A program made the position numbers and the translations under genes. Below the pieces are notes generated by a model, which was not told where the DNA came from, did no database searches, and worked only from the letters and a program-made list of their open reading frames with translations. From assembly GCF_003086295.3 (NCBI RefSeq), contig NC_092039.1, positions 67,041,649 through 67,105,648 of the forward strand: DNA of 64,000 nucleotides, read 5' to 3'. The stretch comes from Arachis hypogaea. Taxonomy: Eukaryota; Streptophyta; Magnoliopsida; Fabales; Fabaceae. How positions within the stretch are numbered: the first letter of the stretch is position 1; each line of letters begins with the position of its first letter. Positions 1 to 63,280 of the stretch are shown here, piece after piece.

Positions 1-374
1 AGAATCTCACTAGAGATGGCAGACAAATCCATGAAACAGGCTTATGGACTTGTAGAGGATGTTTTAGTGAAGGTTGAAGGCCTTTACATCCCGTTGACTT
101 CATAATCCTAGACACTGAAAAGAATAAGGATGAATCCATCATCCTTGGCAGACCCTTCCTAGCCACAGCAAAAGCTGTGATTGATGTTGATAGATGAGAG
201 TTGGTCCTTCAAGTGAATGAGGACTACCTTATGTTTAAGGCTCAAGGATCTCCTTCTGTACACATGGAGAAGAAGCATGAAAAGCTTCTCTCAATACAGA
301 GTTAAAAAGAGCACCCACATTCAAACTCTAAGTTTGGTGTTGGGAGGCCACAACCATGCTCTGAGTATTTGTGA
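1..374 (+). pseudogene. gag-protease 3' fragment (retropepsin tail)
   Basis: The translation matches the C-terminal protease part of the E1 and E5 genes: a VEDVLVKVEG stretch, then IILGRPFLATA (flap/C-terminal strand of the retropepsin fold), then one NSKFGV repeat and the ending CSEYL with a TGA at 372-374. The catalytic Asp lies before the window. A frameshift near 95-100 (one base lost after ATCCC) and stops at about 195 and 303 break the frame. The family function is processing of the Gag polyprotein; this copy cannot do it. Confidence 0.8.
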
Positions 375-812: not shown

Positions 813-1176
813 CAGGGATGACAAATCCTGGACACCTCAGGATCTATGGACCCCACAGGATCCCCACCTACCTCAACTCACTCTCTCTCTTATTCACACA
901 TCCCCATAACACCCTTCCCCAAATACCCCTCACCAATCACCTCTATTTCTCTTCTCCATCACCTCTTTACCACACACATCCACCCACTCTTCCCCAAAAA
1001 CCCCCACATACCTCACCATTCAAATTCAAATCTTTTTCCTCCCAAACATAACCTCTAATACACGAACCCTCTTGGCAAATTCACAAATCAAAAACACTTC
1101 TTCTCCCTCTTGGCAAAACCACTCACACCTCTCCATCTCCTCCACTTCTTCTTCTTCTCTATCCTTCTTTCTTTTT
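813..1176. other. C/T-rich spacer of E0
   Basis: Non-coding C- and T-rich sequence between the palindrome cluster and ORF2. It contains GGATCTATGG/GGATCCCC direct repeats that recur in E1 (10880-10910), E3 (26222-26245) and E5 (58825-58880). Short frames here are not conserved between copies. Confidence 0.6.
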
Positions 1177-1214
1177 TTGCTCGAGGACGAGAAAACCTTT
1201 TAAGTTTGGTGTGG
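1177..1214 (+). promoter_or_regulatory. Internal hairpin plus TAAGTTTGGTGT (E0)
   Basis: TTGCTCG-AGGA-CGAG followed by a short gap and TAAGTTTGGTGTGG, just upstream of ORF2. It resembles the module that abuts the 3' LTR at 3367-3402, so E0 carries the module twice. Confidence 0.6.
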
Positions 1215-2317: not shown

Positions 2318-3366
2318 GGTGGACCCATTCTTTGATTTTCTTGTTCTTATTTTTCTATTTTTCGATTTTTATGCTTCATGTTTTTACATGATAATTAGTA
2401 TTTAGAGTCTATGTCTTTAGGCTATGAATGTCCTATGAACCCTTCACCTTTCTTAAATGAAAAATGTGCCTAATTACAAAAGAATAATAATTACTTAAAT
2501 TTCGAAATTTATCTTGAAATTAGTTTGATTATTTTGATGTGGTGGCAATACTTTTTGTTTTCTGAACGAATGCTTGAACATTGCATATTTTTTATAGTGA
2601 AGTTTATGAATGTTAAATTTGTTGGATCTTGAAGGAATATTGAAAAAAAGAGAAATGTTATTGATGATCTGAAAAATCATAAAATTAATTCTTGAAGCAA
2701 GAAAAAGCAGTGAATAACAAAGCTTGCAAAAAAAAGTGGCAAAAAAAATAAGAGAAAAAAAAGAAAAAACAAGCAGAAAAAGCCAATAGCCCTTTAAACC
2801 AAAAGGCAAGGGTAAAAAGGGATCCAAGGCTTTGAGCATTAATGGATAGGAGGGCCCAAAGGAATAAAATCCTAGCCTAAGCGGCTAAATCAAGCTGTCC
2901 CTAACCACGTGCTTATGTCATGAAGGTCCAAGTGAAAAGCTTGAGACTGAGTGGTTAAAGTCGTGATCCAAAACAGAAAGAGTGTGCTTAAGAACTCTGG
3001 ACATCTTTAACTGGGGACTTTAACAAAGTTGAGTCACAATCTGAAATGGTTCACCCAGTTATTTGTTTGTGGCATTTATGTATCCGGTGGTAATACTGGA
3101 AAACAAAGTGCTTAGGGTCACGGCCAAGACTCATAAAGTAGCTATGTTCAAGAATCAACATACTGAACTAGGAGAATCAATAACACAATCTTAATTCTGA
3201 ATTCCTAAAATGCCAATCATTCTGAATTTCAAAGGATAAAGTGAGATGCCAAAACTGTTCAGAAGCAAAAAGCTACTAGTCCCGCTCATCCAATTTGAGC
3301 TAAGCTTTATTGATATTTTGGAATTCATTATATATTCTCTTCTTTTGATTCTATTTTGTTTTCTAT
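2318..3366 (+). other. 3' non-coding region of E0
   Basis: AT-rich region without a believable gene. It carries the block TGTGGCATTTATGTAT at 3068-3083, followed by CCGGTGGTAATACTGGAAAA, which is shared with E1, E3 and, in weaker form, N and A. Confidence 0.6.
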
Positions 3367-3402
3367 TGCTTGGGGACAACCAACAATTTAAGTTTGGTGT
3401 TG
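3367..3402 (+). promoter_or_regulatory. LTR-adjacent hairpin and TAAGTTTGGTGTTG motif (E0)
   Basis: TTGCTTG-GGGA-CAACCAA (stem partly decayed) followed by TAAGTTTGGTGTTG at 3389-3402, directly against the LTR start TGATGAGC. This is where an LTR element has its polypurine tract, the primer for plus-strand DNA. The motif is not purine-only. The assignment rests on position and on conservation across families. Confidence 0.65.
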
Positions 3403-8435: not shown

Positions 8436-8474
8436 CAACACCAAACTTAAATTGTTGCTTGTCCTCAAGCAACT
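8436..8474 (-). promoter_or_regulatory. LTR-adjacent hairpin and TAAGTTTGGTGTTG motif (E1)
   Basis: On the minus strand GTTGCTTG-AGGA-CAAGCAAC (8454-8473), a short gap, then TAAGTTTGGTGTTG ending one base before the LTR. It lies at the polypurine-tract position. Confidence 0.68.
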
Positions 8475-10514: not shown

Positions 10515-10552
10515 CACACCAAACTTAAAATGTTTGCTTGTCCTCGAGCAAA
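10515..10552 (-). promoter_or_regulatory. Internal hairpin plus TAAGTTTGGTGT (E1)
   Basis: Minus strand TTTGCTCGAGGACAAGCAAA, gap, TAAGTTTGGTGTGG, about 35 bases upstream of the ORF2 start. It is a second copy of the module at 8436-8474. Confidence 0.6.
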
Positions 10553-11348: not shown

Positions 11349-13673
11349 TCACAGATACTCAGAACCGTGTTGGAACCACCCAACACCAAACTTAGAGTTT
11401 GAATGTGGGGGTTCAACACCAAACTTAGAGTTTGGTTGTGGCCTCCCAACACCAAACTTAGAGTTTGACTGTGGGGGCTCTGTTTGGCTCTGTTTTGAGA
11501 GAAGCTCTTCGTGCTTCCTCTCCATGATGACAGAGGGATACCCTTGGGCCTTAAACACCAAGGATTCTTCATTCACTTGAATGATCAACTCTCCTCTATC
11601 AACATCAATCACAGCCCTTGCTGTGGCTAGGAAGGGTCTGCCAAGGATGATGGATTCATCCATGCACTTCCCAGTCTCTAGGACTATGAAATCAGTAGGG
11701 ATGTAATGGTCTTCAACTTTAACCAGAACATCCTCTACAAGTCCATAGGCTTGTTTTCTTGAGTTGTCTGCCATCTCTAGTGAGATTTTTGCAGCTTGCA
11801 CCTCAGAGATTCCTAACTTCTCCATTACAGAGAGGGGCATGAGGTTTATACTTGACCCTAAGTCACACAAGGCCTTCTTGAAGGTCATGGTGCCTATGGT
11901 ACAAGGTATAGAAAACTTCCCAGGATCTTGCCTCTTTTGAGGTAGTTTCTGCCTAGACAAGTCATCCAGTTCCTTGGTGAGCAAAGGGGGTTCATCCTCC
12001 CAAGTCTCATTTCCAAATAACTTGTCATTTAGCTTCATGATTGCTCCAAGGTATTTAGCAACTTGCTCTTCAGTGACATACTCATCCTCTTCAGAGGAAG
12101 AATACTCATCAGAGCTCATGAATGGCAGAAGTAAGTCCAATGGAATCTCTATGGTCTCATTTTGAGCCTCAGATTCCCATGGTTCCTCATTGGAGGCCAG
12201 TGGACGTCCAGTGAGGTCTTCCTCAATGGCGTTCACTGCCTCTTCTTCCTCCCAGAATTTGGCCTTGTTGATGGCCTTGCACTCTCCTTTTGGATTTTCT
12301 TCAGTATTGCTTGGAAGAGTACTAGGAGGGAGTTCAGTAATTTTCTTGCTCAGCTGACCCACTTGTCCTTCCAAATTTCTGATGGAGGACCTTGTTTCAG
12401 TCATGAAACTTTGAGTGGTTTTGATTAGATCAGAGACCATGGTAGCTAAGTCAGAGGTATTCTGCTTAGAGCTCTCTGTCTGTTGCTGAGAAGATGATGG
12501 AAAAGGTTTGCTATTGCTAAACCTGTTTCTTCCACCATTATTGTTATTGAAACCTTGTTGAGGTCTCTGTTGATCCTTCCATGAAAGATTTGGATGATTC
12601 CTCCATGAAGGATTGTAGGTGTTTCCATAGGATTCTCCCATGTAATTCACCTCTTCCATTGAAGGGTTCTCAGGATCATAGGCTTCTTCCTCAGATGAAG
12701 CTTCCTTGGTACTGCTTGGTACATTTTGCATTCCAGACAGACTTTGAGAAATCAAATTGACTTGTTGAGTCAATATTTTGTTCTGAGCCAATATGGCATT
12801 CAGGGTGTCAATCTCAAGAACTCATTTCTTCTGACTAGTCCCATTGTTCACAGGAATTCGTTCAGAAGTGTACATGAAGTGGTTATTTGCAACCATTTCA
12901 ATCAGTTCTTGAGCCTCAGTAGGCGTCTTCTTTAGATGAAGAGATCCTCTAGAAGAGCTATCCAAGGACATCTTGGACAGTTCAGAGAGACCATCATAGA
13001 AAATACCTATGATGCTCCATTCAGAAAGCATGTCAGTGGGACACTTTCTGATTAATTGTTTGTATCTTTCCCAAGCTTCATAGAGGGATTCTCCTTCCTT
13101 CTGTCTGAAGGTTTGGACTTCCACTCTAAGCTTACTCAATTTTTGAGGTGGAAAGAACTTTGCCAAGAAGGCATTGACTAGCTTTTCCCAAGAGTCCAGG
13201 CTTTCTTTAGGTTGAGAGTCCAACCATGTTCTAGCTCTGTCTCTTACAGCAAAAGGGAATAGCATAAGTCTGTAGACCTCAGGGTCAACCCCATTAGTCC
13301 TGACAGTGTCACAGATTTGCAAGAATTCAGCTAAAAACTGATGAGGATCTTCCAATGGAAGTCCATGGAACTTGCAATTCTGTTGCATTAGAGAAACTAA
13401 TTGAGGCTTAAGCTCAAAGTTGTTTGCTCCAATGGCAGGGATAGAGATGCTTCTCCCATAGAAGTCGGGAGTAGGTGCAGTAAAGTCACCCAGCACCTTC
13501 CTTGCATTGTTGGCATTGTTGTTTTCGGCTGCCATGTGTTCTTCTTCTTTGAAGAATTCGGTCAGGTGCTCTAAAGAGAGTTGTGCTTTGGCTTCTCTTA
13601 GCTCTCTCTTCAAGGTCCTTTCAGGTTCAGGATCAGCCTCAACAAAAATGCCTTTGTCTTTGCTCCTGCTCAT
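11349..13673 (-). pseudogene. gag-protease polyprotein, one nonsense codon
   Basis: 774 codons from ATG at 13673. The N-terminus (SRSKDKGIFVEADPEPERTL) matches G and E5. A plant retrotransposon gag (capsid) domain lies at about residues 85-215, with RTWLDSQPKESLDSWEKLV and ESLYEAWERYKQLI. There is no CCHC knuckle. A TGA at 12822-12824 (residue 284) replaces the Gly codon seen in G and E5. The protease has catalytic CDLGSS (Asp about 604) and ILGRPFLATA. The C-terminus has three NSKFGV repeats. Gag forms the particle and the protease cuts it. No RT follows. Same length as the intact E5 gene, so the single stop is the only visible lesion. Confidence 0.88.
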
Positions 13674-15385
13674 AAGAAAGAGAAGAGAGCAAGAAAATGT
13701 GGAATCCTCTATGTCACAGTATAGAGATTCCTTTAGGTGTCAGAGGAAAAGAAGAGTAGAAGACAGAAGTAGAAAATTCGAACTTATCAAAGGAGATGGA
13801 GTTCGAATTTTGCATTAAGGGATAGTGTTAGTCCATAAATAGAAGGATGTGAGAAGGAGGGAAGTAATTTTCGAAAATTAAGTGAAAAATTTTGAAAACA
13901 TTTTTGAAAAACATTACTTAATTTTCGAAAATGAAAATGGAAAAGAAATCAAGTGATTTTTGAAAAAGATTTTGAAATTAGAAATCAACAAGATTTGATT
14001 GAAAACTATTTTGAAAAAGATGTGGTTAAGAAGATTTGATTGAAAAGTTATGGTTTTAAAAGGATATGATTGAGAAGATATGATTTGAAAGCAATTTTAA
14101 AAAGATTTGATTTGAAAATTAAAAACTTGACTAACAAGAAAAGATATGATTCAAACATTAAACCTTTCTCAACAGAAAAGGCAACATACTTGAAATGTTG
14201 AATCAAATCATTAATTGATAGTAAGTATCTTTAAAAAATAGAAAGAAATTGATTTTGAAAAAGATTTGATTGAAAAATTGATTTGAAAAAGATTTGATTT
14301 TGAAAAGATTTTGAAAACTTAGAAAAAAATTGATTTGAAAACAAAATCTTCCCCTCTAGCCATCCTGGCGTTAAACGCCCAGAATGGTGCACATTCTGGC
14401 GTTTAACGCCCAAAATACTACCCTTTTGGGCGTTAAACGCCCAACCAGGTATCCTGGCTGGCGTTTAAATGCCAGTCTGTCCTTCTTCACTGGGCGTTTT
14501 GAACGCCCAGCTTTTTCTGTGCAATTCCTCTGCTGTATGTTCTGAATCTTCAATTCTCTGTATTATTGACTTGAGAAGACACAAATTAAAAATATTTTTG
14601 GATTTTTAATAATAAGGAAAAATCAAAATGCAACAAGAATCAAATAACAATGCATGCAAGACACCAAACTTAGCAGTTTGTATACTACTGACATTAACAA
14701 AATGAAAATGCAAATGAGACACACAAAACACTCAAGTCAATAGAATTTAAAGATCAGAGCAAGTAAATCATCAAGAACATCTTGAAGATCACTAAGACAT
14801 ATGAATGAATGCATGCAATTGACACCAAACTTAAGATGAGACACTAGACTCAAACAAGAAACATGCAATATTTTTGGTTTTTATGATTTTGTAATTTTTT
14901 TTTGTGTTTTTCGAAAATTGAGTGGAAAAAGGTATCAAAATTCTTAATGAGAATTCCAGGAATCAGTGCAATGCTAGTCTAAGACTCCGGTCCAGGAACT
15001 AGACATGGCTTCACAGCCAGCCAAGCTTTCAAAGAAAGCTTCGGTCCAAAACACTAGACATGGCCAGAGGCCAGCCAAGCCTTAGCAGATCATTGCTCCA
15101 AAAGCAAGATTGATAAAAATCAACAAGCTTTTGTGGTGATAAGTTGAAACCTCGGTCCAATGAAATTAGACATGGCTTCTCAGCCAGCCAGATTTCAACA
15201 AATCATCATGAAACTCTAGAATTCATCTTCAAGAATTTCGAAAAAAATAAATACCTAATCTAAGCAACAAGATGAACCGTCAGTTGTCCAAACTAGAACA
15301 ATCCCGGGCAATAACGCCACTAACTTGGTGTTGTTGCCGGATCTTGGCACTGATGTTACCAAAAGCTTGCTCAAAACTTGAACAG
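13674..15385 (-). other. Leader of E1
   Basis: About 1.7 kb of untranslated leader, A-rich with runs of TTTTCGAAAA type. Holds five GGCGTT/AACGCC palindromes (14365-14513), sense-strand copies of the AAGTTTGGTGT motif near 14663 and 14822, and three copies of a repeat around ACTAGACATGGC..CAGCCAGCC (14995-15195). Decayed primer-site-like copies lie at 15300-15360. Confidence 0.7.
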
Positions 15386-24573: not shown

Positions 24574-24611
24574 CAACACCAAACTTAAATTGTTGCTTGT
24601 CCCCAAGCAAC
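24574..24611 (-). promoter_or_regulatory. LTR-adjacent hairpin and TAAGTTTGGTGTTG motif (E3)
   Basis: Perfect stem GTTGCTTG-GGGA-CAAGCAAC (24592-24611) followed by TAAGTTTGGTGTTG (24574-24587) against the LTR. Confidence 0.7.
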
Positions 24612-26075: not shown

Positions 26076-26111
26076 CACACCAAACTTAGAATATTGCTCG
26101 CCCTCGAGCAA
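26076..26111 (-). promoter_or_regulatory. Internal hairpin plus TAAGTTTGGTGT (E3)
   Basis: Minus strand TTGCTCG-AGGG-CGAGCAA (26094-26111), gap, CTAAGTTTGGTGTGG, upstream of ORF2. Two stem positions are changed together relative to the LTR-adjacent copy. Confidence 0.62.
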
Positions 26112-35717: not shown

Positions 35718-37163
35718 CTGAGGTAATACTCTTTTGCTGTTTCTTTTATTTGTTTCAATAAAAAGGTGAAGTAGTTTCTGTGCATTGCAAAGAATTAAGT
35801 TTGGTGTTTCACACCAAACAATGAATTCGTGATCAATAATTCAAGGGGGAATGTGTGACTCTAAGTTTGGTGTTCCACCATACAAATCAACTGCACACAA
35901 CAACCTTTGAATTATATGAAAGGAACAACCATTCTAAGCAATCACAGAAATGCTTAAAATCCTTAGCAGCAACTTCATTCCAAGGAGAATTCAAGAATTC
36001 AAAGAGCAGAGGAGTAAGTAGGAGACTAAGTTTGGTGTTCACACACCAACTTAAGACTCAGACACTGGCCCATACATAATTGAGCTAACAACTCAAGTGC
36101 TTGAGAAGCAAGCAACTTCATCACTCTTTGCAGGAAAAGAAACAAGGATCTTAGAAAGAACATGAAGCAACAACTAGGAGAAGAAGGAGAAATCAAATTG
36201 TTTCCTGGCAACAAAGAGAAAAACAAGAAATTTCACAAGGTGGTATTGTTTCTTGAACATTCTTTAAAAGGCAAACAAAAGCATGCTTGTTCTGGTTTAA
36301 ACTGTAATTGTTGAATCTTTCTGGAATATGAAGTTTCTAGTATGATTGTTTGTTTATTGCTTTGAATAAAGTGAATGCCTAGATGTTTGGATATAACTTC
36401 ACCTTCTTAAACAAATGCTTGCCATGCTTGTTCTGTTTCCAAAAATAAAAGAAAAGTTTGAGTGTAGAATTATCATTTTTGTAGAAGTTGAGTACTGTCT
36501 ATGGATTTTGATAAATAAATGTCTTTGGCCATGAAAAAGAAAGAAAAAGAAGAAGAAAAAGCCACTGAAAAGGGGCAACCAAAAAGCAAAAAAATTGAGA
36601 AAATAAGCTAGGCACCAATGGTTTGAACTTCTGAGACAAATGCCTGTGGTGTTTATGTATTAAGGATATGCTTGGATGAATAGGTTCTGAGGAGTGTTTC
36701 AACACTTGGTAACTTGGGTTAACTAACCCGGGATTATCGACAAAAAATCCATTATCAAGAGCAACCTAAATACAAAACATTTAGTCACACAAAGAGGTGT
36801 TGGGCACCAATGTCTCAAGAAGAAATGTGAACTAAAATGCCTGTAGTGGATATGTGTAATGCACTGATAAGAAAAAGAAAATGCCAAAGGCTTGTGCAAC
36901 ACATGACACTGAGCAAACAAGGAGCAAAGGAGCTCTAAGAAAAAGAAAAACAAAGAAGGGAAAAGTGCCAAAGACATAAGAATAACAAGAGGCCATAGCA
37001 GTGTTTAATGGATGCAATGAAAAAGTGATAATCCTACCTGATAAGAATGAAAAAGTGATGCTGCAACTTTCTGCATAAAACCCTTCTGATGAACTTCAAA
37101 TGCTTGCTAATATAGCCAAGGTAATTGCTTTTTGTTTCATACTTTCTTCTCAAATAACTCAGG
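35718..37163 (+). other. 3' non-coding region of A
   Basis: About 1.45 kb with no supported gene; an env-like frame is absent. It holds AAGTTTGGTGT at about 35798, 35862 and 36029, two of them inside small hairpins with ACACCAAA or ACACCAACTT, and the shared block TGTGGTGTTTATGTAT at 36645-36660. Confidence 0.65.
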
Positions 37164-37201
37164 ACTTGCTTAGGGACAAGCAAGTATTAAGTTTGGTGTT
37201 G
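37164..37201 (+). promoter_or_regulatory. LTR-adjacent hairpin and TAAGTTTGGTGTTG motif (A)
   Basis: Stem ACTTGCTT / AAGCAAGT around AGGGAC (37164-37185), then TAAGTTTGGTGTTG (37188-37201) directly against the 3' LTR. Confidence 0.72.
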
Positions 37202-37510
37202 TGATGCCAAGGCATCTTAGGCTAGTTTCACTAGCATTTTTCTGTTAGTTTTAGTTGTTTTATGCATTTTCTTGAGCTTAAAGTAACCAAGAATGGTTAA
37301 ATGAACAACAAAGTAATGAATCATCCAAACAGTGTAATTTTGATGCAAATTCCATGAGTTTTTAGTTATATTACTTGAATGCTATGAATGGAAGATTTCT
37401 CATGAAATTTTGCAAGACTTTGATGCAATTGTGTGGATGATTTCAGGGAAGAAGAGGCTAGGAAAGGAAGCAACAAAATCAATAAAGGAAGCTTGAAGAT
37501 CACATGTGGA

Positions 37511-38259
37511 GTTTAAGTTCCAGTTTAAGCTTAAACTGGAACTTAAACTACCAAGCCATATAATGCTGAAAGTGGCGTTTAACCTCCAGTTTAACCTTAA
37601 ACTGGAAGTTAAACGCCAGAATAAGAAATGCACCAAAGCTGAAAGTGGCGTTTAACCTTCAGTTTAAGGTTAAACTGAAGGTTAAACGCCAGAATCATGA
37701 AAGCTGAGAAAAGAGGAAACTGGCGTTTAACCTCCAGTTTAACCTTAAACTGAAGGTTAAACGCCAGAATGAGAATGGCACCAAGGAAGCATTTCCACGT
37801 TTAACCTCCAGTTTAACCTTAAACTGGAGGTTAAACGTGTTCAAACCATATTATGCACCAGGAAGCCATTTCCACGTTTAAGCTCCAGTTTGACCTCAAA
37901 CTGGAGCTTAAACGTGTTCGACATTCACACTCCTGGGCTACCTTCTTCATTCCCACGTTTAAGCTCCAGTTTAAGGTTAAACTGGAGCTTAAACGTGTTC
38001 GGCGTTTTTGCTACTCCAGGGTTGCCTTCTCATTTCCACGTTTAAGCTCCAGTTTAACCTTAAACTGGAGCTTAAACGTGTTCGACCAGAATTGCCTCCA
38101 GGGGTTGCAATCTTCATTTCCACGTTTAAGCTTCAGTTTAACCTTAAACTGAAGCTTAAACATGTTCGATTAATTACCCTCCTGGGTTGCTTTCTTTCAT
38201 TTCCACGTTTAAGTTTCCGTTTAACCTTAAACTGAAACTTAAACTTCAACTTAAACGCC
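37511..38259 (+). repeat. Ten tandem palindromes, 3' LTR copy
   Basis: Same array as 27995-28743 with a handful of single-base differences, one of which (CATG for CGTG near 38161) breaks an arm. Confidence 0.95.
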
Positions 38260-39096
38260 ACTTTTTGAAAGGGTTTCTGGGCCAAATATATTGAAGTTTA
38301 AGTTAGCATTTGAGCACAAACATTAACTTAAACGTATTATGGTATGAAACCCAATTGAATATCATGGTTTATGGGATTGGGCCTGAAGAATTGATGAGTC
38401 TGGAACTTCAATTTGTTGAGCATTGTGTCATTACTTGTTTATCACTAAGTTTGCTCAATGAATGTTACAGAATTGGATCACAGCCTCATCAGGATTATGG
38501 ACCATAAACCCAAAGCAAAAGGAAATCAAGGAAAGGCCTCAAAGCCCAAGAAACACAACAGAAGCTCAATTTAGAAAGTGTATAAATAGGATAGAATTGA
38601 AGTTAGTTAGCACTTTTTGACACTTTGGAATTTTCATACTTTTGTAATTGAATTCAGAGCTATGATTCACTAAACCCCTTTCATTGGGTTAGGGAGCTCT
38701 ATTGTAATTCAATGAATCAATAATAGTTTTATCTTCTTCTTCAATCTTTTCTCTTGAATTTTGTTAGAAAGCTTCTCGATCTAATTCCATTGGGTAGTTG
38801 TCTTAGGAAAGAAACTATCCATAATTGGAATCCTTCGGAACCTTGGGAAAGGAATGGAGGATTCATGCTAGAGAAGCTTTCTCACAGTGAATTGGATTGG
38901 GGTTTGGATAGATATTGTGACATGTAATCCTACCAAATTGTGGTTCATGAAACTGTGTGGTATAATCAGTGATCGAGCATTATCTCTTCTTATGAAGATT
39001 TAAACCAAGGGATTGGGAATTTGTTTGTTTTTAGATAGAATTGGTGAGCCAAGGAATTGGGATCCAATCATATAAGATTGCCAAGCAAGATTCAAT

Positions 39097-39101
39097 GAAT
39101 G
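39097..39101. repeat. Target-site duplication GAATG of N (left copy)
   Basis: GAATG here and at 46379-46383. Confidence 0.95.
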
Positions 39102-41209
39102 TGATGGTGTTTTTGTGGAAAAATGAATTTCCAACACACATATCCAACCGGCAAGTGTACCGGGTCGCATCAAGTAATAATAACTCACAAGAGTGAGGTC
39201 GATCCCACAGGGATTGATGGATCAAGCAACTTTAGTGGGTGATTAGTTTAGTCAAGCTAACATTTAAGTGAGAATTATGGCAGCAAAATGTAAATAGCAA
39301 TGAACTTAAAGTGCAGAATGTAAATAGGCAGGAAGCTTAAAGAACAAGCAATGTAAATTGCAGAAACTTAAATTGCAAGAATTGTAAATTGCAAGAATCT
39401 TAAATGACAAGAAATGTAAATTGCATTAAATGTAAAGGGGATTGGGTGCAGGAAATTTAAAGGAAAGCAATAAGCAGCACTTAGACTAATTGCAGAATAA
39501 TTAAATTGCATAAAAATAAAAGGACTTGGATGCTGGGAATTAAAATTCAACAAGAGAATGTAAGGAGCAATCAAGCAGAAGAGTTACTTGCAATAAATCT
39601 TAAACAGAAAGTAGAATTGCTTGAAGAAGCAAACAGAAATTAAATTCAGTTTAATTGCCAAATGAGATTGAAGATCTCAGGAAATCAAAGAGACTAGAGA
39701 ACAAGTCTAGATCTCAATTCCTTCCTTGATCCAACCAAGAACAATTGCAGAAGGAATGAAGATAAATGAATTGCAGAATTAAAAGAGAAGATGAAGCAGT
39801 ATGTGAATTTCAATTATGCAGAAAAAGTAACCAAGAGATCTCAAGGTGAGAATGAAACAGAATTCCTCCAATCTCACTCAAGATTTAAAACAGAAAAGAA
39901 AACTAAAGGAGAGAGCTATCTATTCCTAATGGAGCCGGCCTCCTTTCAAAGATGGAAATGATGCCTTATATAGGCTTTACAAAATAAAATGAAAATGAAA
40001 TTAAAACAAATTACAAAAATGAAAATCCTAAATTACTTGATCCATGTGCCTTTGAGTGATGATTTGGGCTTTGCTTGCTTTGGATTTAAGGAGAAATGGG
40101 TTTGGTTGGCCTTGATTCAATTTGGAGAGGAATTGAATTTAAATGAAAATTTGGTTGAATTTTGGCCCATGTTGCTCCCAGGAGGCTGCCCTGCCCTTAT
40201 GGAGGGCAGGGCAGGATTTGGTGCGTTGTGGTGCGGCCTTGGTGCGTGAAATGCTGCCCTGCCCGCGCCAAGGGCAGGGCAGAAAAAGTTGGTGCGCCAG
40301 AACGTGCCACGGTGCTGCCAGAATCAAGAATTGGTGCGCCAGACTCAGAAATTGGTGTGCCAGAAATTTTCCTTGGTGCATGGGATGCTGCCCTGCCCTC
40401 GCGGAGGGCAGGGCAGAAAAATATGGTGCTGCCAGGATTGAGTTGCGATGTACGCTGGTGCTGCCAGGAGAGAATTGGTGCGCCAGATTTGTGTGTGGTG
40501 CGCCAGATTTGTGCACCAATCCAAATGCTGCCCTGCCCTCGCAGAGGGCAGGGCAGTGTTTTCACTTTGATGTCCCAAGTTCGAACCATGGCCGAAACAC
40601 ACGCTACTTAATTTCCTTGGCTTTCTTGGCACCAAAGTAAGGCCTAGTTTCTTGCTTTCTCATGGCCCTTAAAGATGCCTTTCGTTCCTGCCGCAATTTT
40701 GTGCCAAATATGGATTGCTATATATCGTTGGAAAGCTCTGAATGTCAGCTTTCCAACGCAACTAGAAGCACATCAATTGGACGTCTGTAGCTCAAGTTAT
40801 AGCCCTTTGAAGTAGGCATGGTCATGCTGTGTGCGGCCAGATTTTAACTTAGCGAAAATTCTTGCTTCCAACCACACTTTGCATCACGATTCTGCCCTGC
40901 CCTTGGCAAGGGCAGGGCAGTGTGCGTGCTGGCTGCTTCCTTCCTTGATTTGGTCATGGGCCACACTTTTAAAAGCGTGGCCTAAGGCTCCAAAGTGTAC
41001 CCAACTTCAAAATGTACCCCAAAGCTCTTTTTTTCTCCTTTTTTTGTACTTCTTTGCTTCTTTTTCTTCTTATTTCCTACAAGATTTATAAAATTAAAAT
41101 ATCAAGAAAATATATCATTTAAGTACAAAAGCATTCAATATTTAAGCACAAATCATCAATTTCTTGTATGAAAAGCATAGAAAAATAGGTATATGATGAC
41201 ATGTCATCA
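39102..41209 (-). repeat. 3' LTR of N (2108 bp)
   Basis: Partner of 44290-46378. The extra 20 bases near 40480-40510 are a second copy of a GGTGCGCCAGATTTGTG unit. Confidence 0.95.
40186..40920. repeat. CTGCCCTGCCC hairpins in the N LTR
   Basis: Five stem-loops with arms CTGCCCTGCCCT and AGGGCAGGGCAG around five or six variable bases (40186, 40253, 40388, 40528, 40892), interspersed with TTGGTGCGCCAG repeats. The same five occur in the other LTR at 45375-46089. The region is GC-rich, unlike the rest of the element. Confidence 0.92.
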
Positions 41210-41246
41210 CAACACCAAACTTAAACCTTGCTTGTCCCCAAGCAAG
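41210..41246 (-). promoter_or_regulatory. LTR-adjacent hairpin and TAAGTTTGGTGTTG motif (N)
   Basis: Minus strand CTTGCTTG-GGGA-CAAGCAAG (41227-41246), then TTTAAGTTTGGTGTTG against the LTR start TGATGACATG. Confidence 0.72.
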
Positions 41247-42978
41247 AAAAGAATCATGCAATAGAAATTGACAATCCAAGGTAAGAAGAGTAGCAAGTTA
41301 ATGTTCATGGCAAGCTAGTTTTCTATGCATGCTACAATTACAAAAGAGATGTAAATGATTGATGCTTCTATCTAGCTTATTTTATGAAATCTTTTTCTTA
41401 TAATTCTTCCTTGAAACAAGCTTTTGATTTTTTTTTTCTCCTTTTGGGTGCTTTGCCCCATGAGTTAATAACAAAGCTACGACTTCTAAATGCTTTGTTT
41501 TCAAGTATTACCACTTGATACATAAGCACCACAAGCATTTAATTAGAGGACTTCATTAAGCTCATTTTTTTCTTTTCTTTTCTTGACTCTCTAATCATTG
41601 ATGCTCAGAACCTTGAGCTTTGAGGGAGTGCTTTTGCACTTGAGCCTAGCCTTGACTTCTAAGTGTTTTGTTTTCAAGCATTTGGCTTGATACATAAACA
41701 CCACAAGCACTTAGCAAATAAATAGCCATTGGTACTCAGAGCCTTTAGCTTTCTCATTCCTTCCCTTTTTCTTTTCTTGCTTTAATTGTATTTGCTTCTT
41801 CAAGGTTTTCATGATTTTAAAAGATTTCACAAAATGTACTAGATGAAAAACTTCAATTAAATAAAATCCAATGCAATTGAGCAACAATCAATCATACTAG
41901 CTTTCCAATACTTGTATGCACATGCTAAGTTCTTCTTTAATGCCTTGTTTGTTTATGATCATGATACTTTATTGCTTTTGAACTCACAGGATTCAAGTTG
42001 GTAGTCATAATGGTATAGCACCATATTATAATTCAAAATTCAAGCTATGCTTTATTCATACACGTGTAAACAGAAAAGATGAAGACAATCATGCAATTTA
42101 AGTGCCGGAAACAAAGGAGAGGAAAAGGAACTTTACAACCTTGTAGTTCATCTTCATTATTGTTGTCCTTTTTCTCCAATTCTTCCGTTTCCCTTGCCAA
42201 CTTAGAGTGCTTGCTCATCCTCAAGCAATAATTAGAACAATGGCTATGGGGCTTAAGATGGATCATGAATGTCTTACACAATGCAATGTTAGTAGCACAT
42301 GTGTTTTAAGCAAGCAAAATGAAAGATAACAATCAAGGCACAAGAGACATAGACATTTTGATTGCATAGATAAGAAGGTGTGCACAATACATTGCATAAA
42401 AGATAAGTGGCACACCAAACTTAGTGTGACACTTTCACTTGGAATTAATGCAAGTGCCTTGCAAGAATTAGAATAAAATTTTGTTGCATAGCAACACCAA
42501 ACTTAGAATGCGACCATATGTCAATTTATTTGAATTAAAACTAAACAAAAGAAACTGTTATATGTTAAATACAATCACCAAGCCAAGAATCTGTCATTAA
42601 TAAAGCTCTCTTGGTAATGTATTAACAAACACAGTAAATAAGCAAACTAAAATAAAAGCATTAAAAACAAAGAATTAACTAAAGTAAACAGAATAACAAA
42701 ATATCAAACCAAAAGAAAATTAAAACACTGCAAAGACATTATGGTTATGCAGACAAGTGGTGTTGCTGAATGATTTGCATAGAAAAATAGGTGGCACACC
42801 AAACTTAGAATCTTGGTGTGTCACTTTCATTTTTTTGATTTGATGCAATCATCCAAAAAGATTGAAAACAATGTGTTGCATGGCAACACCAAACTTAGAA
42901 TGTAACCATATGCCCATTTATTGAATTTAAACAAAGTAAAGAAAGAAAACAAAGCAGAGAAGAGAAATTATACCTACG
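41247..42978 (-). other. 3' non-coding region of N
   Basis: No gene supported. Two copies of the shared block (minus-strand TGTGGTG.TTATGTAT, at 41518-41533 and 41690-41705), an internal hairpin TTGCTTG-AGGA-TGAGCAA near 42213-42230, and a duplicated segment with two AAGTTTGGTGT motifs (42410-42545 and 42785-42925). Confidence 0.65.
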
Positions 42979-43024
42979 GTTGGGTTACCTCCCAACAAGT
43001 GCTCTTTTAGTGTCATTAGCTTGA
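42979..43024 (-). promoter_or_regulatory. Conserved post-gene hairpin module (N)
   Basis: Minus strand GTCAAGCTAATGACACTAAA, AGAGCACTTGTTGGG, hairpin GTTGGGAGGTAACCCAAC (42979-42996), overlapping the end of the orphan gene. Confidence 0.65.
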
Positions 43025-44089
43025 CATGTTGCTCTTCACTTTCTTCCTCTTCTTCCAGTTTGTTAAGAGGAATGACCTCAAAGAGGGAGAAGATTCAGCT
43101 AGTGTCCCTTGTCTTGGCCTTTTCTCAGCAAGCTTCCTTTTGCAAATGGCTTGATTGATCTTGCTTGCTGGATTAGGGACAGAATTGGTGCTTTTGTTAG
43201 TTGCCTTCACTTCTTAGATGTCAAGACATGGTTGCTGTGTGATTTTCGGAGTTTGATCTTCATCCAGAGCCTTTTGAATTGGTGGTTCCATGAATCCTTC
43301 TTCTATGCAACTCTCTGCTTCAATTGAGGGTGACTTTTCTTGAGTGTCTTCCTCACTTTCTTGATCCTCCACTTCTTCCCTAGTCACCTCAAGTGCAGTT
43401 TCATTTTCAACCACCTCATTCTTCATTGAAAGTTCACTTGATGCAGTGGCCTCCTTATCTTGCTCTTCCACTTTCTCCTTCACATCTATCAATTGACCTT
43501 CATTTTCCTTGCTCAGTGGTTCTACGCTCCTCCTTGTTTACTCTAAGGGGCCATTCATCTTATTGAAAATGATTTCTTTCCAGGATTGGGGTTGTGTGTA
43601 TCTTTCCACGAGTTTTCTATGTATTTCAATGGCTTGAAGGTAATCCTCATCTGGTGGTTCAAGAGATGAAGGTTGAGAGTAATTTTGGTAACGTGGATAT
43701 GTTGTGGTGAAGTTGTGTTGAGGGGTGTGGAATGAGTTGTGTGATTGATGGGATGACTTGTATGGATTTTGGAGGAAACCTTGTGTTGAGGCATAATTAA
43801 GTGATGAAGAACTTTCAAATGAGAAACTGGGACGTGATGGTGGATGCTCTTTCATTCCTTGGTGATACTCCCATCCACCATGAGGATAATGGTATGAATC
43901 ATTTTGTGGTGGTGAGAAATATCCCATATGATTATCTTGTTCATCTTGTGACTTTGAAGTGCATCTCCATGGATTGGAGTGCTTAGAATCTGTAAATTCT
44001 TGGTGATATTCCCAACCACCATTAGAGATTTGTGATGGTGGGTGATATCCCAGAAAATTTGTTTGATCACAATATGAGTTGAACTCCAT
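43016..44089 (-). pseudogene. N orphan gene, low-complexity aromatic protein, two stops
   Basis: One reading frame of about 357 codons from ATG 44089, cut by TAA at 43538-43540 and TAA at 43214-43216. The first 183 residues are rich in Ser, Tyr, His, Gln and Pro and repeat GGWEYHQ twice, with GYHPPSQ and GYFSPPQ as further related units. The middle (about 43214-43530) is strongly acidic (EEVEDQESEEDTQEK). The end is basic (KRKLAEKRPR, NWKKRKKVK). No known domain, signal peptide or membrane segment. It sits where gag-protease lies in E1, directly before the post-gene hairpin. The composition suggests a disordered, perhaps nucleic-acid-binding protein, but this is a guess. Confidence 0.72.
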
Positions 44090-44265
44090 TTGAATTTTTT
44101 AAAACACAACACCAATGAAAATTGGAATTACTCATATCAGAAATGAGTTTTGCTTAGTGAGGCAAAAACACAAACACCTTGGTTTCAACTTAGAACAGAG
44201 AACAAAAAAGAAAAAAATGCTTGATCTAGACTTCTCACCCACTTAATCATTGTTGATCTAATCAA
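44090..44265 (-). other. Short leader of N
   Basis: About 180 bases of leader, much shorter than the 1.0-1.7 kb leaders of the E-type elements. Nothing else seen. Confidence 0.6.
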
Positions 44266-44283
44266 TCCCCGGCAACGGCGCCA
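44266..44283 (-). promoter_or_regulatory. Primer-binding site, tRNA-Asp (N)
   Basis: TGGCGCCGTTGCCGGGGA on the minus strand, perfect. Confidence 0.92.
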
Positions 44284-49724: not shown

Positions 49725-50747
49725 GATCAAGAAAGGGAGATAATTTTGATTTATTTTATTTATTTTATTATATAAAAAAATTATTTTCGAAATAATAAAA
49801 TAAAATAAAATAAAATAAAATAAAATAAAATAAAAATAAAAAGAAAAATTTGAAAATGTTTTGTGAAGATTTTCGAAAAAAATGAGGAGAGAGAAAGTGG
49901 TTATGATATTTTTGAAAAAGATATAATTTAAAAAATTTTGACCAAGTCAACCCAAGTAATACGAAAATTATGAGAAATTAAAGGAGAAGGTATTTTTTTT
50001 TTGAATTTTACTATGAAAGAGAGAAACACACAAAAGACACAAGACCTAAAATTTTTTGATCTAATGCTCCTTGTTTTCGAACATTTTGGAGGGAAAACAC
50101 CAAGGAACACCAAACTTAAAAATTTTAAGATCAAAACACAAGGAAGACTCAAGAACACTTTCAAGAATCACAAGAACAACAAGAACAAAAGAAAGAACAC
50201 CAAACTTAAAATTTTTAGAAAACCAAAATAAATTTTCGTAAATTAAAGAAAATTAACAAGAAAACACCAAACTTAAAGTTTGGCACAAGATTCAATCAAA
50301 GAAAATTATTTTTGGAAAAGATTTTAAAAAGAAGATACCCAATCACCAAGAACATAAACTAACGGTCTAGCCAATTGAGCTATAAATGTAATGTGTTTTA
50401 AAGAGGTATTTTTTTAATAAATAAAAATAATTTTTTTTTTGAAAACTAATATTTTAAAATTGCATAAGGAAACATGAAAAATACAGAAAATAGGAAAAAC
50501 CAAAGATCAAACAAGAAAAATTGACAAGAACAGTTTGAAGATCAAGGAAAAATAAAGAACATGCAATTGACACCAAACATAAAACAAGACACTAAACTCA
50601 CGAAAAAAATAAAAATTAATAAAGAAAAATAATATTTTTGAAAAATTTTTTTAGGAGGGATAATAAAAGATGCAATTCTAGTAAAAAAGATAAATTTTTC
50701 CTAATCTAAGCAACAAGATTCACCGTCAGTTGTTCAAACTCAAACAA
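49725..50747 (-). other. Leader of E3
   Basis: AT-rich leader. Includes an AAAAT pentanucleotide repeat at 49788-49845, at least four ACACCAAACTT copies (sense-strand AAGTTTGGTGT; 50098-50275), and an A-box-like TAGCTCAATTGG on the minus strand near 50370-50385. Confidence 0.6.
49788..49845. repeat. (AAAAT)n microsatellite
   Basis: About ten repeats of AAAAT, partly imperfect at both ends. Confidence 0.85.
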
Positions 50748-55061: not shown

Positions 55062-56632
55062 ATTAAATGTCCTAACTACAGTTTCGCATTTGTTCCCTGC
55101 AATAACAGTGCCAAGTTTTGATCCGGCAACAACACCAAGTTTTTGGCGCCGTTGCCAGGGATTGCTTGAGTTTGGACAACTGACGGTTCATCTTGTTGCT
55201 TAGATTAGGTATTCTTCTTCAGAATTTTTAAGAATGAATTCTAGAGTTTCAAGGTGATGTTCTTATCATCACCAAAGCTGATTGATTTTCATCAGTTTAG
55301 CTCTTGAATGTAATGTCCTGCGGAAGCTTGGCTAGCCATGTCTAATCTCTTTAGACTAAAGCTTTAGACTAACATTGCATGATTCTTGGAATTCTTATTA
55401 AAAATTTTGAATCTCTTTATTTTCTTTTCCACTCAATTTTCGAAAAAAGCACAAAAAAAATTTAAAATCTTAAAATCAAAAATATTTTTATGTTTCTTGT
55501 TTGAGTCTAGTGTCTAATTTTAAGTTTGGTGTCAATTGCATGTCTTTATTCTTCTAATTTTCGAAAAATTACATGCATTATGTTCTTCATTGATCTTCAA
55601 GTTGTTGTTGATGATTTCCTTGCTCTGATCTTTAAATTCTCTTGTCTTGAGTGTTTTGTTGTTTCTCATATGCATTCTCAATTTGTTAGTGTCAATAGTA
55701 TACAAACTTCTAAGTTTGGTGTCTTGCATGCATTGTTTATTTGATCTTAGTGGCATTTTGATTAATCCTCATCATTAAAAATCCAAAAAATTTTTAAAGT
55801 GTGTCTTTCCAAGTCAATAATATAAAGAATTGAAGATTCAGAATATACAGCAGAGGAATTACACAGAAAAAGCTGGGCGTTCAAAACGCCCAGTGAGGAA
55901 GGAAAACTAGCGTTTAAACGCCAGCCAGGGTACCTGGCTGGGCGTTTAATGCCCAAAAGGGTAGCATTTTGGGCATTAAACGCCAGAATGGATACCATTC
56001 TAGGCGTTTAACGCCAGGATGGCACAAGAGGGAAGATTTTGTTTTTAATTCAGATTTTTTTTTAAGTTTTCATAATTTTTCAAAATCAAATCTTTTTCAA
56101 ACCATATCTTTTCAATCATATATTTTCAAAATCAATTTCTTTCCATTTTTCAAAAATACTTGCTAACAATTAATGATTTGATTCAACATTTCAAGTATGT
56201 TGCCTTTTCTGTTGAGAAAGGTTTAATGTCTGAATCATATCTTTTAAATTTCTTGTTAGCCAAGTCATTAATTTTAAAAATCAAATCTTTTTAAATAGTT
56301 TTCAATCATATCTTTTTAATTTCTAATTTCAAAATCTTTTTCAAATTTTACTTAATTTCTTTCCCAATCTTAGTTTTCGAAAATCAATTACCATTTTCCA
56401 AAATTTCTTTTAATTAATTCACTTTAATTTTCGAAAATTTCTTTCCCTCTTCTCACATCCTTCTATTTATGGACTAACACTCCTCCTCAATGCACAATTC
56501 GAACTCTATCCCTCTTGATAAGTTCGAATTCTTCTACCTCCTCCTTCTATTCTTCTTTTCCTCTGACACATCAAGGAATCTCTATACTGTGACATAGAGG
56601 ATTCCATACTTTCTTGTTCTCTTCTCTTTCAT
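55062..56632 (+). other. Leader of G
   Basis: Contains a second primer-site-like TGGCGCCGTTGCCAGGGA (55145-55162), AAGTTTGGTGTC at 55523 and 55712, four GGCGTT palindromes (55872-56022) and AT-rich TTTTCAAATC runs. No gene. Confidence 0.65.
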
Positions 56633-58582: not shown

Positions 58583-58619
58583 CACACCAAACTTAAAATA
58601 TTGCTCGCCCTCGAGCAAG
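58583..58619 (-). promoter_or_regulatory. Internal hairpin plus TAAGTTTGGTGT (E5)
   Basis: Minus strand TTGCTCG-AGGG-CGAGCAA (58601-58618), gap, TTTTAAGTTTGGTGTGG. Confidence 0.62.
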
Positions 58620-59411: not shown

Positions 59412-61736
59412 TCAATTTAAGTGTGTAGTCCCAACACCAAACTTAGAGTTTGGATATGGGGTTTGAACACCAAACTTAGAGTTTGGTTGTGGCCTCACAA
59501 CACCAAACTTAGAGTTTGACTGTGTGGGCTCTTCTTGACCTTGAACTGAGAGAAGCTCTTCATGCTTACTCTCTTTTGTCACAGAGGGATGGCCATGTGC
59601 CTTAAACACAAGGTAGTCCCCATTTAATTGAAGGACTAACTCTCCTCTGTTGACATCTATCACAGCTTCTGCTGTGGCTAGGAAAGGTCTTCCTAGGATG
59701 ATGCATTCATCATCTTCCTTCCTAGTGTCTAGGATTATGAAATCAGCAGGGATGTAAAGGCCTTCAACCTTTACTAAAACGTCCTCTACCATTCCACAAG
59801 CTTGTCTTATGGATTTGTCTGCCAATTGTAATGAGAACAAGGCAGGTTGTACCTCAATGATCCCCAGTTTCTCCATTACAGAGAGTGGCATCAGATTTAT
59901 CTCTGACCCAATATCACATAGAGCTTTTTCAAAGCTCATGGTGCCAATGGTGCAAGGTATTAAGAACTTGCCAGGATCTTGTTTCTTTTGAGGTAGAGTT
60001 TTCTGAATCCAAGTATCCAGTTCACTAATGAGCAAGGGAGGTTCACTTTCCCAAGTCTCATTACCAAACAACTTGGCATTCAGCTTCATGATAGCTCCTA
60101 AGTATTGAGCAACTTGCTCTCCAGTCACATCTTCATCCTCTTCAGAGGATGAATAGTCTTCAGGGCTCATGAATGGCAGAAGGAGATGTAATGGAATCTC
60201 TATGGTCTCTAGATGAGCCTCAGATTCCTCTGGATCCTTAATAGGAAACTCCTTCTTGCTTGAAGGACGTCCCAGGAGGTCTTCCTCACTAGGATTTTCG
60301 TCCTCCTCCTCCCCTATGCATTCGGCCACTTTGATTAAATCAATGGCCTTGCACTCTCCTTTTGGATTCTCTTCTGTATTGCTTGGGAGAATATTGGGAG
60401 GAGTTTCAATGACTTTCTTACTCAGCTGACCCACTTGTGCCTCCAAATTTCTAATGGAGGATCTGGTTTCATTCATGAAACTGAAAGTGGCCTTTGACAG
60501 ATCAGAGACTATATTGGCTAAATTAGAATTATTTTGATCAGAGTTCTCTGTCTGTTGCTGAGAAGATGATGGATATGGCTTACTATTATTCAGCCTATTG
60601 CGTCCACCATTGTTAAAGCCTTGTTGAGGCTTTTGTTGATCCTTCCAGGAGAAATTTGGATGATTTCTCCATGATGGGTTATAGGTGTTTCCATAAGGTT
60701 CACCCAGATAATTAACGTCTGCCATGGCAGGGTTCTCAGGATCATAAGCTTCTTCAGAAGCTGCCTCTCTAGTACTGTTGGCTGCATGTTGCAATCCATT
60801 CAGATTTTGAGAGATTATGTGGACCTGTTGGGTCAACATTTTGTTCTGAGCCAATATGGCATTCAGAGCATCAATTTCAAGAACTCCTTTCTTTTGAGGT
60901 ATCCCATTATTCACAGAATTCCTTTCAGAGGTGTACATGAACTGGTTGTTTGCAACCATGTCAATGAGTTCTTGAGCCTCTTCAGGCGTTTTCTTCAGGT
61001 GAATAGATCCACCTGCAGAATGGTCCAGTGACATTTTCGAAAATTCAGAGAGACCATAATAGAATATATCTAACATGGTCCATTCTGAAAACATGTCAGA
61101 TGGACATCTTTTGGTCAGCTGCTTATATCTTTCCCAAGCTTCATAGAGGGATTCACCATCTTTTTGCTTGAAGGTTTGAACATCCACTCTCAGCTTGCTC
61201 AGCTTTTGAGGAGGGAAGAACTTATCTAAGAAAGCAATGACCAGCTTATCCCAGGAGTCCAGGCTATCCTTAGGTTGTGAATCCAACCATATTCTAGCTC
61301 TGTCTCTTACAGCAAAAGGGAAAAGCATGAGTCTGTAGACTTCAGGATCAACTCCATTCGTCTTTACAGTCTCACAGATCTGCAAGAATTCAGTTAAGAA
61401 CTGATAAGGATCTTCATATGGAAGTCCATAAAACTTGCAGTTTTGTTGCATTAATGCAACTAGTTGAGGCTTAAGCTCAAAGTTATTGGCTCCAATGGCA
61501 GGAATGGAGATGCTTCTTCCATCAAACTTGGACGTTGGCTTTGTGAAGTCTCCAAGCATTCTCCTTGCATTATTATTATTATTATTTTCGGCTGCCATGT
61601 CCTTCTCTTGTTCGAAAATTTCTGAAAGGTTGTTTCTGGATTGTTGTAATTTAGCTTCTCTTAATTTTTTCTTCAGAGTCCTTTCAGGTTCTGGATCAAT
61701 TTCAACAAGAGTGCCTTTTTCCCTGTTCCTTCTCAT
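59412..61736 (-). CDS. Intact gag-protease polyprotein (element E5)
   Basis: 774 residues from ATG 61736. An upstream in-frame ATG at 61850 would add 38 residues, but MRRNREKG..DPEPERTL aligns with the E1 and G starts, so 61736 is chosen. Gag domain at about residues 85-215 (RIWLDSQPKDSLDSWDKL, ESLYEAWERYKQL); a coiled-coil MLTQQVHIISQNL; an Asn/Gln-rich NPSWRNHPNFSWKDQQ linker without a CCHC knuckle; a second helix MNETRSSIRNLEAQVGQL; an acidic Ser-rich patch (DYSSSEEDEDV); then a retropepsin with CDIGSE (Asp 608) and ILGRPFLATA. Three NSKFGV repeats end it. The protease site reads D-I-G where D-L-G or D-T-G is usual, and the following Ala/Ser is normal Ser then Glu. No RT or integrase follows. 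It would build and process particles. Confidence 0.93.
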   Translation of the reverse strand: MRRNREKGTLVEIDPEPERTLKKKLREAKLQQSRNNLSEIFEQEKDMAAENNNNNNARRMLGDFTKPTSKFDGRSISIPAIGANNFELKPQLVALMQQNCKFYGLPYEDPYQFLTEFLQICETVKTNGVDPEVYRLMLFPFAVRDRARIWLDSQPKDSLDSWDKLVIAFLDKFFPPQKLSKLRVDVQTFKQKDGESLYEAWERYKQLTKRCPSDMFSEWTMLDIFYYGLSEFSKMSLDHSAGGSIHLKKTPEEAQELIDMVANNQFMYTSERNSVNNGIPQKKGVLEIDALNAILAQNKMLTQQVHIISQNLNGLQHAANSTREAASEEAYDPENPAMADVNYLGEPYGNTYNPSWRNHPNFSWKDQQKPQQGFNNGGRNRLNNSKPYPSSSQQQTENSDQNNSNLANIVSDLSKATFSFMNETRSSIRNLEAQVGQLSKKVIETPPNILPSNTEENPKGECKAIDLIKVAECIGEEEDENPSEEDLLGRPSSKKEFPIKDPEESEAHLETIEIPLHLLLPFMSPEDYSSSEEDEDVTGEQVAQYLGAIMKLNAKLFGNETWESEPPLLISELDTWIQKTLPQKKQDPGKFLIPCTIGTMSFEKALCDIGSEINLMPLSVMEKLGIIEVQPALFSLQLADKSIRQACGMVEDVLVKVEGLYIPADFIILDTRKEDDECIILGRPFLATAEAVIDVNRGELVLQLNGDYLVFKAHGHPSVTKESKHEELLSVQGQEEPTQSNSKFGVVRPQPNSKFGVQTPYPNSKFGVGTTHLN

Positions 61737-63280
61737 ATGAAAGAGAAGAAAACAAGAAAAGAAAAAGGAATCCTCTATGTCACAGTATAGAGATTCCTTT
61801 ATGTTAGTAGAAGAAGAAAGGGGTAGAAGAAGAGTGGAAAAGAAACACAACTGTGAGGATGGCAGAGATGTGAGATGAGATGTTAGGATATGAATGAAGA
61901 GAGGTGAAGAGAAGTGTTAGTAATTAAAAAATTAAATAGAAGAAGAAAAGAGAAAATTCGAAAATAATTTTTTTGAAAAAGAGTTAGTGATTTTCGAAAA
62001 TTAGAGATAAAATATAATTAAAATTAAAATTTAAAACAAAAAGAATTTTTGAAAAAGAGAGGGAGAATTTTCGAAAATTAGAGAGGGAAAAGTAGTTAGG
62101 TGGTTTTGAAAAAGATAAGAAACAAACAAAAAGTTAGTTAGTTGATTGAAAAAGATTTGAAATCAAATTTTGAAAAAGATAAGAAGATGAGAAGTTAGAT
62201 AAGATATTTTGAAATCAAATTTTGAAAAAGATAAAACTTTTGAAAAAGATAAGATAAAAGATAAAAAGATAAATTTGGACAAGATATTTTGAAAAAGATT
62301 TAATTTTAAAATTGACTTAACTAACAAGAAACTACAAGATAAGATTCTAGAACTTAAAGATTGAACCTTTCTTAACAAGAAAGTAACAAACTTCAAATTT
62401 TTGAACCAATCACATTAATTGTTAGCTAATTTTCGAAAATTAGATAAAAAGATAAGATAAAGATTTTGAAAATATTTTGAAAAATAATTTTTGAAATTTT
62501 CGAAATTTATAAAGAAAATGAAAAAGATATGATTTTTGAAAAAGATTTTGAAAAGATAAGATTTTTAAAATTGAAATTTTGATTTGACTTGTAAGGAATA
62601 ACTAATTTTGAAAATTTTTGACCAAGTCAATCCCAAAGTTTCAAAATTTTGGAGGGAAATAAGGAAAAGATATTTTTTTTGAAATCAAATTTTGAATGAA
62701 AAACACAAAAATGACCCAAAACATGAAAATTTTGGATCAACACACAAGATGCATGCAAGAATGCTATGAATGTCAAGATGAACACCAAGAACACTTTGAA
62801 GATCATGATGAACATCAAAAACATTTTTTTGAAAAATTTTTGATGCAAAGAAAACATGCAAGACACCAAACTTAGAAATTTTTAATGCATGGAAAATATG
62901 AATGCAAAAATGCACATGAAAAACAACAAAAGACACAAAACAAGAAATCATCAAGATAAAACAAGAAGACTTGTCAAGAACAACTTGAAGATCATGAAGA
63001 ACACTATGAATGCATGAGATTTTCGAAAAATGCAAGAAAAAATTTTAAAAACATACAATTGACACCAAACTTAAAAATTAACACAAGACTCAAACAAGAA
63101 ACACAAAATATTTTTGATTTTTATGATTTTCTAATTTTTTTTGTATTTTTATTAATTTTTTCGAAAATAAAGTTTGCAAAAACGAAAAATAAAAGAAAAA
63201 ATTTTTTGAAAAAGTTTTTGAAAAGAAAATTACCTAATCTGAGCAACAAGATGAACCGTCAGTTGTCCATACTCGAACAA
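61737..63280 (-). other. Leader of E5
   Basis: About 1.5 kb of A-rich leader with GAAAAAGAT and TTTTCGAAAA repeats and ACACCAAACTT (sense AAGTTTGGTGT) near 62862 and 63063. Unlike the E1 and G leaders it has no GGCGTT palindromes. No gene. Confidence 0.65.

Follow-up and report, generated by a model that had tools for sequence, protein, structure and literature searches.

A covarying hairpin and a T-containing 14-mer at the 3' LTR edge of unrelated LTR families: a candidate plus-strand origin lacking a polypurine tract

Elements of the window and the 14-mer at their 3' LTRs

The window, as we call the whole 64-kb stretch analysed here (G000:C4:67041649-67105648, from the 2.56-Gb assembly of 440 contigs used for the genome counts), is a nest of LTR elements comprising E1, E3, A and N plus the partial elements E0, F and G. 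Element A lies on the plus strand, with LTRs at 27686-29971 and 37202-39101, the second continued at 46379-46769, and the TSD CACCT; its gag, protease, RT, RNase H and integrase are all present. Nested within its 3' LTR is element N (about 39102-46378, minus strand, TSD CATTC), which had no Pfam match in the single frame tested. E1 (LTRs 6682-8435 and 15410-17163, minus strand, TSD GAGAG) has gag and PF20167 and, in the three frames tested, no pol, while E3 (LTRs 23032-24573 and 50772-52333, minus strand, TSD GTAGC) retains a piece of RNase H. The first-pass annotation of this DNA had described the LTR bodies of A, N and the E group as unrelated, and we agree: blastn (E ≤ 1e-8) found no mutual chained match among them of at least 200 aligned bases.

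Element A has one RNase H region as well as integrase, and its PBS has one mismatch to the 17-mer used as query, a word that fits tRNA-Asp. The criteria that PMC6317226 gives for the Athila lineage are the lack of a second (archaeal-type) RNase H and a tRNA-Asp-type PBS. Despite the unrelated LTRs, a 6-nt spacer AGTTTT/AGTTTA separates LTR and PBS in A (29972-29977), N (44284-44289), E1 (15404-15409) and E3 (just before its PBS), and it resembles the AAGTTTGG core of the 12-mer described below. Paired primer-binding sites about 90-100 bp apart were seen at 55044 and 55144 of the window and at 8088 and 8177 of locus L026, the sequence preceding the second site of each pair resembling an inverted site. 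A further element at 21580 (+) has the exact 17-base primer-binding word and a different LTR end (CGTCAAAA before the word); its 3' end was not found within the window. An Rfam match to snoR71 at 30839-30942 (-), antisense to the gag frame of A, scored 42.6 bits (gathering threshold 40) and is probably a chance match.

Each of the five 3' LTRs for which the first-pass annotation had reported the 14-mer TAAGTTTGGTGTTG is indeed preceded by it with no base in between: at 37188..37201 (+) in A, 41210..41223 (-) in N, where it adjoins the LTR at 39102-41209, 24574..24587 (-) in E3, 8436..8449 (-) in E1, where it adjoins the LTR at 6682-8435, and, together with a broken hairpin, at 3365..3402 (+) in E0, whose LTR occupies 3403-5077. 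The 5-bp TSDs of A, N, E1 and E3 give independent evidence of where their LTRs end, so the abutment is not a matter of annotation choice. The window holds 32 matches to the 14-mer with up to two mismatches, against 1.0 expected, and the genome has 150,756 exact copies, against 84 of the reversed word used as a control. Followed by TGATG and then C, G or T, the 14-mer occurs 8,368 times in the genome (control 0), and such copies among the fetched loci belong mostly to families besides E and N; followed by TG and then C, G or T it occurs only 379 times (control 3). When we located E-type LTR starts by LTR sequence alone, 30 were found in the 279 kb of window and loci; the exact 14-mer preceded 20 of them, and the other 10 were preceded by sequence with at least nine mismatches to it. 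Since the 14-mer was itself the basis on which the loci were chosen, this shows a fixed register and not a frequency. Two A-like copies (L063 and L067) have an extra TG between the 14-mer and the LTR start.

These data come from one genome and from sequence only, with loci mostly chosen by the word itself: the selection of L003-L030 required the exact 14-mer, and that of L031-L070 also required TGATGB or TGB after it. Exactness outside the window is therefore a biased estimate; within it there are 32 exact copies of the 12-mer that forms the first 12 bases of the 14-mer and one with a single mismatch. The counts exclude L001 and L002, as well as L004-L006, which overlap L030.

The hairpin and the purine content upstream of the 3' LTR

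Upstream of the 14-mer lies a hairpin, which in A reads ACTTGCTT-AGGGAC-AAGCAAGT (37164..37185, +), in N CTTGCTTG-GGGA-CAAGCAAG (41227..41246, -), in E3 GTTGCTTG-GGGA-CAAGCAAC (24592..24611, -) and in E1 GTTGCTTG-AGGA-CAAGCAAC (8454..8473, -). The arms had been correctly reported for these four elements; the hairpin of E0 is broken (CAACCAAC). We examined 48 sites at which the 14-mer is followed by a TGATG start. At 40 of them a stem without mismatches (counting G-U as a pair) ends 16-19 nt before the LTR, seven have no stem, being either decayed (E0, L031, L034, L047, L067) or split by LTR insertions (L014, L041), and one (L032) has a spurious stem.

The first-pass annotation had also proposed that the arms change together, and this was borne out over 44 distinct units, in which 322 of 352 cells (pairs 1-8) held standard pairs, compared with a mean of 297.6 and a maximum of 308 in 2,000 shuffles of the 3' letters. 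As this control ignores relatedness, the kind of pair change matters more than the count. The outermost pair is T-A in 13, C-G in 11 and G-C in 9 of the 44 units; at the second position T-A occurs in 33 units, among them every one of the 31 labelled 3', and C-G in 10 units labelled internal; the fourth is A-T once (L061). Counting against pairing, the outermost position is A-C in another 9 units, mostly of A-like families. A regex had yielded 45 distinct units from 79 sites, one false match (window 36000) being left out, and pairs were counted in the register of the loop, with three short loops set by hand. The 3' and internal labels were assigned by the analyst and are less certain where there is no TGATG start (L003, L052, L053, L061, L064, L068-L070). 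With these labels, the distance from loop to 12-mer is 11-12 nt in 31/31 3' units and 12-13 nt in 13/13 internal units. Folding energies of single hairpins were modest (z from -2.6 to +0.2 in the ten folded); the folds of E0 and of the internal unit of E1 were weak, the stem of L061 differed from the minimum-energy fold, and the mean z at the 33 window 12-mer sites was -1.1 vs -0.7 (sd 1.5) at 130 control positions. Covariation is thus better evidence for the hairpin than folding energy, which alone is weak.

As a separate observation, two E-type LTRs interrupt 3' hairpins of two families, both at an identical position. One insertion is seen in L014 (about 9550-9577) with L015 (1285), where the TSD is ACAAG, and the similar one in L041, in the other family, is flanked by CTTGT/ACAAG. 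It is possible that the hairpin loop is an insertion hotspot.

Although the 14-mer occupies the position of a plus-strand primer, it is no purine tract, as the first-pass annotation had also recognized: seven of its 14 bases are T. We measured purine runs in the final 40 nt ahead of the LTR at 41 distinct sites. The longest was five in 37, four in two and three in two, and it lay nearly always within the hairpin loop. The mean T fraction upstream was 0.52 (41 sites, no control computed). The purine form TTTAAGTTTGGGGG was not enriched genome-wide, with 37 copies vs 143 of its reversed control, so this G-rich form is not common in the genome. With neither a long purine run nor an enriched purine form, what we have is the plus-strand-primer position without a polypurine tract (PPT); by position the hairpin and 14-mer are a PPT, yet by sequence they fail its defining feature.

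Related elements elsewhere carry AAGTTTGGGGG at the position of the 14-mer. The PPT of Ty1 contains T. Single pyrimidines are reported within the HIV-2 and Mason-Pfizer tracts (PMC3185511), and AGGGG is reported in 19/19 plant LTR clones, which had been amplified with a PPT primer (PMC4032725). As to context, upstream T-rich boxes are described as important in Ty1 and several retroviruses (PMC10085805), and the Ty3 PPT is described as lying, in a structured context, within a paired region of lower probability (PMC11381356). In full-text searches of the literature, none of the papers among the listed hits, judged by titles and abstract openings, described the hairpin or the word. Two scans of viral contigs returned one match each (L001 and L002), which we took to be chance rather than viral relatives; L001 had no second copy of the core word, and long repeats were absent from both.

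The 12-mer inside the elements

The word is not confined to the edge of the 3' LTR, since its first 12 bases also occur in the 5' leader, at the gag end and in a second internal hairpin unit, with further sites after pol in A and in the inner part of N. By our hand-made element map, all 33 window copies are in the sense orientation of their own element, with four in A, five in N, six in E3 (one with a mismatch) and seven in E1; each of six loci spanning the E1-type inner part likewise has seven. Over the window and 25 loci there were 140 exact copies and seven with one mismatch, and none of the 140 fell in LTR-like DNA, which makes up 22.8 percent of the bases (copies within a family are not independent). 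The next commonest complex 12-mers in window and loci were the palindrome-like GGCGTTTAACGCC and GCGTTAAACGCC, at about 104-106 copies each.

Leader copies are found in E3 (50107..50581, -; first bases 50581, with the mismatch, 50275, 50208 and 50118), E1 (14661..14833, -; first bases 14833 and 14672), F (55521..55722, +; starts 55521 and 55711) and G (62863..63073, -; first bases 63073 and 62874). Three in-frame copies at 33-nt spacing end the gag-side ORF of E1 (11383..11460, -), three at the same spacing end the gag ORF of G (59434..59511, -), and E0 has one in the gag-side position (329..340, +). N has four internal copies (42412..42897, -; first bases 42897, 42807, 42505 and 42423), and A has three after pol (35796..36038, +; starts 35796, 35862 and 36027), with no RGGR hairpin. 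These last three are spaced 66 and 165 apart, both multiples of 33 nt, the period seen in the gag array, and for two of them there is a complement downstream with which they can pair (p 0.010 and 0.045).

The hairpin accompanies the copy at the 3' LTR and the second internal unit, and not the remaining 12-mers. The top of the second unit reads CTCG-RGGR-CGAG or CTTG-AGGA-CAAG. In the window it is found in E3 (TTGCTCG-AGGG-CGAGCAA, 26077..26111, -), E1 (TTTGCTCG-AGGA-CAAGCAAA with one C-A mismatch, 10516..10552, -), G (58584..58618, -) and, with a decayed stem, E0 (1176..1212, +). In most E-type loci, and in L013 and L030, it precedes the 3' copy by 1.1 to 2.2 kb, and in L021 by 3.9 kb; there is none in L028, A or N.

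In 19 aligned gag ends the three copies are in frame (SKFGV), and diversity at their 12 third codon positions was 0.0000 vs 0.135 at 145 other third positions; none of 389 other 12-bp gag blocks was as uniform as the least uniform motif block. A constraint on the peptide alone would have left most of these positions free, so selection acts on the nucleotides. Outside the hairpin units, 12-mers fell into 25 flank clusters, some of them related or remnants of units, and the word is invariant across about two dozen flanks; self-hairpins at these internal copies (p<0.05 in 3/25 clusters, p<0.2 in 12/25) are at most tentative. A word present four to seven times per element, always in sense and constrained as nucleotides in gag, makes any account of the 3' copy alone incomplete.

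That the internal copies hardly vary at all seems to point to specific recognition more than to resistance against RNase H. On one alternative, the 12-mer is mainly a genomic-RNA recognition site through which Gag selects RNA for packaging or as a dimer, repeated for avidity, with the RGGR-loop hairpin belonging to the signal and the primer being a tolerated neighbouring G/T stretch. GGUG- and GGAG-type loops bind nucleocapsid in HIV-1 and may offer a parallel. Such a packaging signal would account for the several invariant sense copies per element and for the sharing of the word between elements with and without pol or other genes, but it leaves the exact end of the 14-mer at the LTR in each family, and the absence of the word from LTRs, unexplained, and the five gag/pol frames searched contained no CCHC zinc knuckle; we consider it a possible but minority explanation. 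The word might instead be read by the host (for RNA export, stability or DNA binding) and kept for expression, its position at the LTR being incidental, which the very high copy number would suit, as would the complement, which presumably contains something like a plant MYB site. A reader of double-stranded DNA is difficult to reconcile with 33/33 copies in sense, a transcription signal with absence from the LTRs, and either with the exact register at the LTR edge, and we find a host signal unlikely.

A candidate plus-strand origin and its known relatives

From the place of the signal at the LTR edge, its sequence, the lack of a purine tract, the covarying stem, the RGGR-type loop, the spacing and the nucleotide constraint, all of which are observed, we infer a mechanism. 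We put at about even the chance that in a group of Ty3/gypsy elements the hairpin and 14-mer act as the plus-strand origin, doing the job of a PPT without being one. RT copying the genomic RNA from the U3 side would meet the stem just past the 14-mer and pause; its RNase H, trailing 16-19 bases behind, would cut at the edge between 14-mer and U3, so that the 14-mer RNA would be left to prime from an exactly defined 3' end. The 12-mer core would be the sequence-specific part. The other sense 12-mers could be extra plus-strand starts, which would account for their orientation and their absence from LTRs, or binding sites for a shared element protein. Elements lacking pol may depend for their copying on an autonomous relative such as A, and for this reason keep their 12-mers. 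Against the plus-strand-origin account count the lack of an RGGR hairpin at most 12-mers, the invariance of the internal copies, the seven sites with no perfect stem, the absence of a second unit from A and N, and the weak or differing folds of E0, the E1 internal unit and L061. The first-pass annotation had offered two candidates, an unusual T-containing primer set by the hairpin and the GGGA loop. On the second reading the purine loop (RGGR plus the purine-rich 3' arm) would prime and the 14-mer would be a mere spacer; the longest purine run does sit in the loop at nearly all sites, the loop-to-LTR distance hardly varies and integrase trimming could hide an extension, but the roughly 25 intervening bases predicted at the left LTR end are absent from all four TSD-bounded ends (A, N, E1, E3) and the sole candidate junction is an LTR insertion, making this reading very improbable. 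That candidate, L014 450 with L015 8715, is a single solo LTR inserted in a hairpin (TSD ACAAG), and among the 30 E-type LTR starts none but that of L014 follows a hairpin reduced to its 3' half.

Returning to the plus-strand origin, the stem-to-LTR spacing of 16-19 nt may help to set the RNase H cut. HIV-type enzymes cut 17-18 nt behind the polymerase site. In Ty3 RT the active sites are given as about 13 bp apart (PMC5371799), against 16-19 here, so the fit of the spacing depends on the enzyme of these elements. A fuller version, which we advance tentatively and rate well below the origin itself, is that structure sets the origin: the hairpin would stall RT one enzyme length from the LTR and so place the RNase H cut, while the 12-base word would prime, recur as multiple starts, be kept from LTRs since a start there would be harmful, and be common to every element copied by a single autonomous family. 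Together, the hairpin, the fixed T-containing word and the internal core repeats suggest an unusual shared replication signal.

The choice of a primer out of a whole RNA has been attributed to the unusual shape that purine-only hybrids adopt. A putative natural primer in which every second base on average is T, and which has a covarying hairpin next to it at near-constant distance, offers a clean test case for RNA structure setting the start. The 12-base word could also be used to trace the autonomous element on which each non-autonomous one relies, in a genome where the 14-base form is present about 150,000 times.

Among known systems, the closest by position is the PPT of retroviruses and LTR retrotransposons, which likewise lies directly upstream of the 3' LTR, at the same position across several families, and with which T-rich sequence farther upstream may be a further likeness; here, in contrast, half of the 14 bases are T, and RNase H resistance and priming are putative. 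The second unit resembles, in its sequence, a duplicated origin like the central PPT, which PMC5371799 describes for Ty1 and retroviruses, with none given as known in Ty3. The likeness is that E-type elements, L013 and L030 appear to repeat the 3' origin internally, whereas the unit here carries a hairpin, is lacking in A and N, and would initiate plus strands only putatively. Non-autonomous grass pararetroviruses offer another likeness, being coding-deficient elements described as keeping the cis signals of their partner (PMC5491270); whole intergenic regions are reported as homogenised there (PMC5491270), whereas what the elements have in common here is the primer-binding region, a pattern of hairpins and a word of 12 bases.
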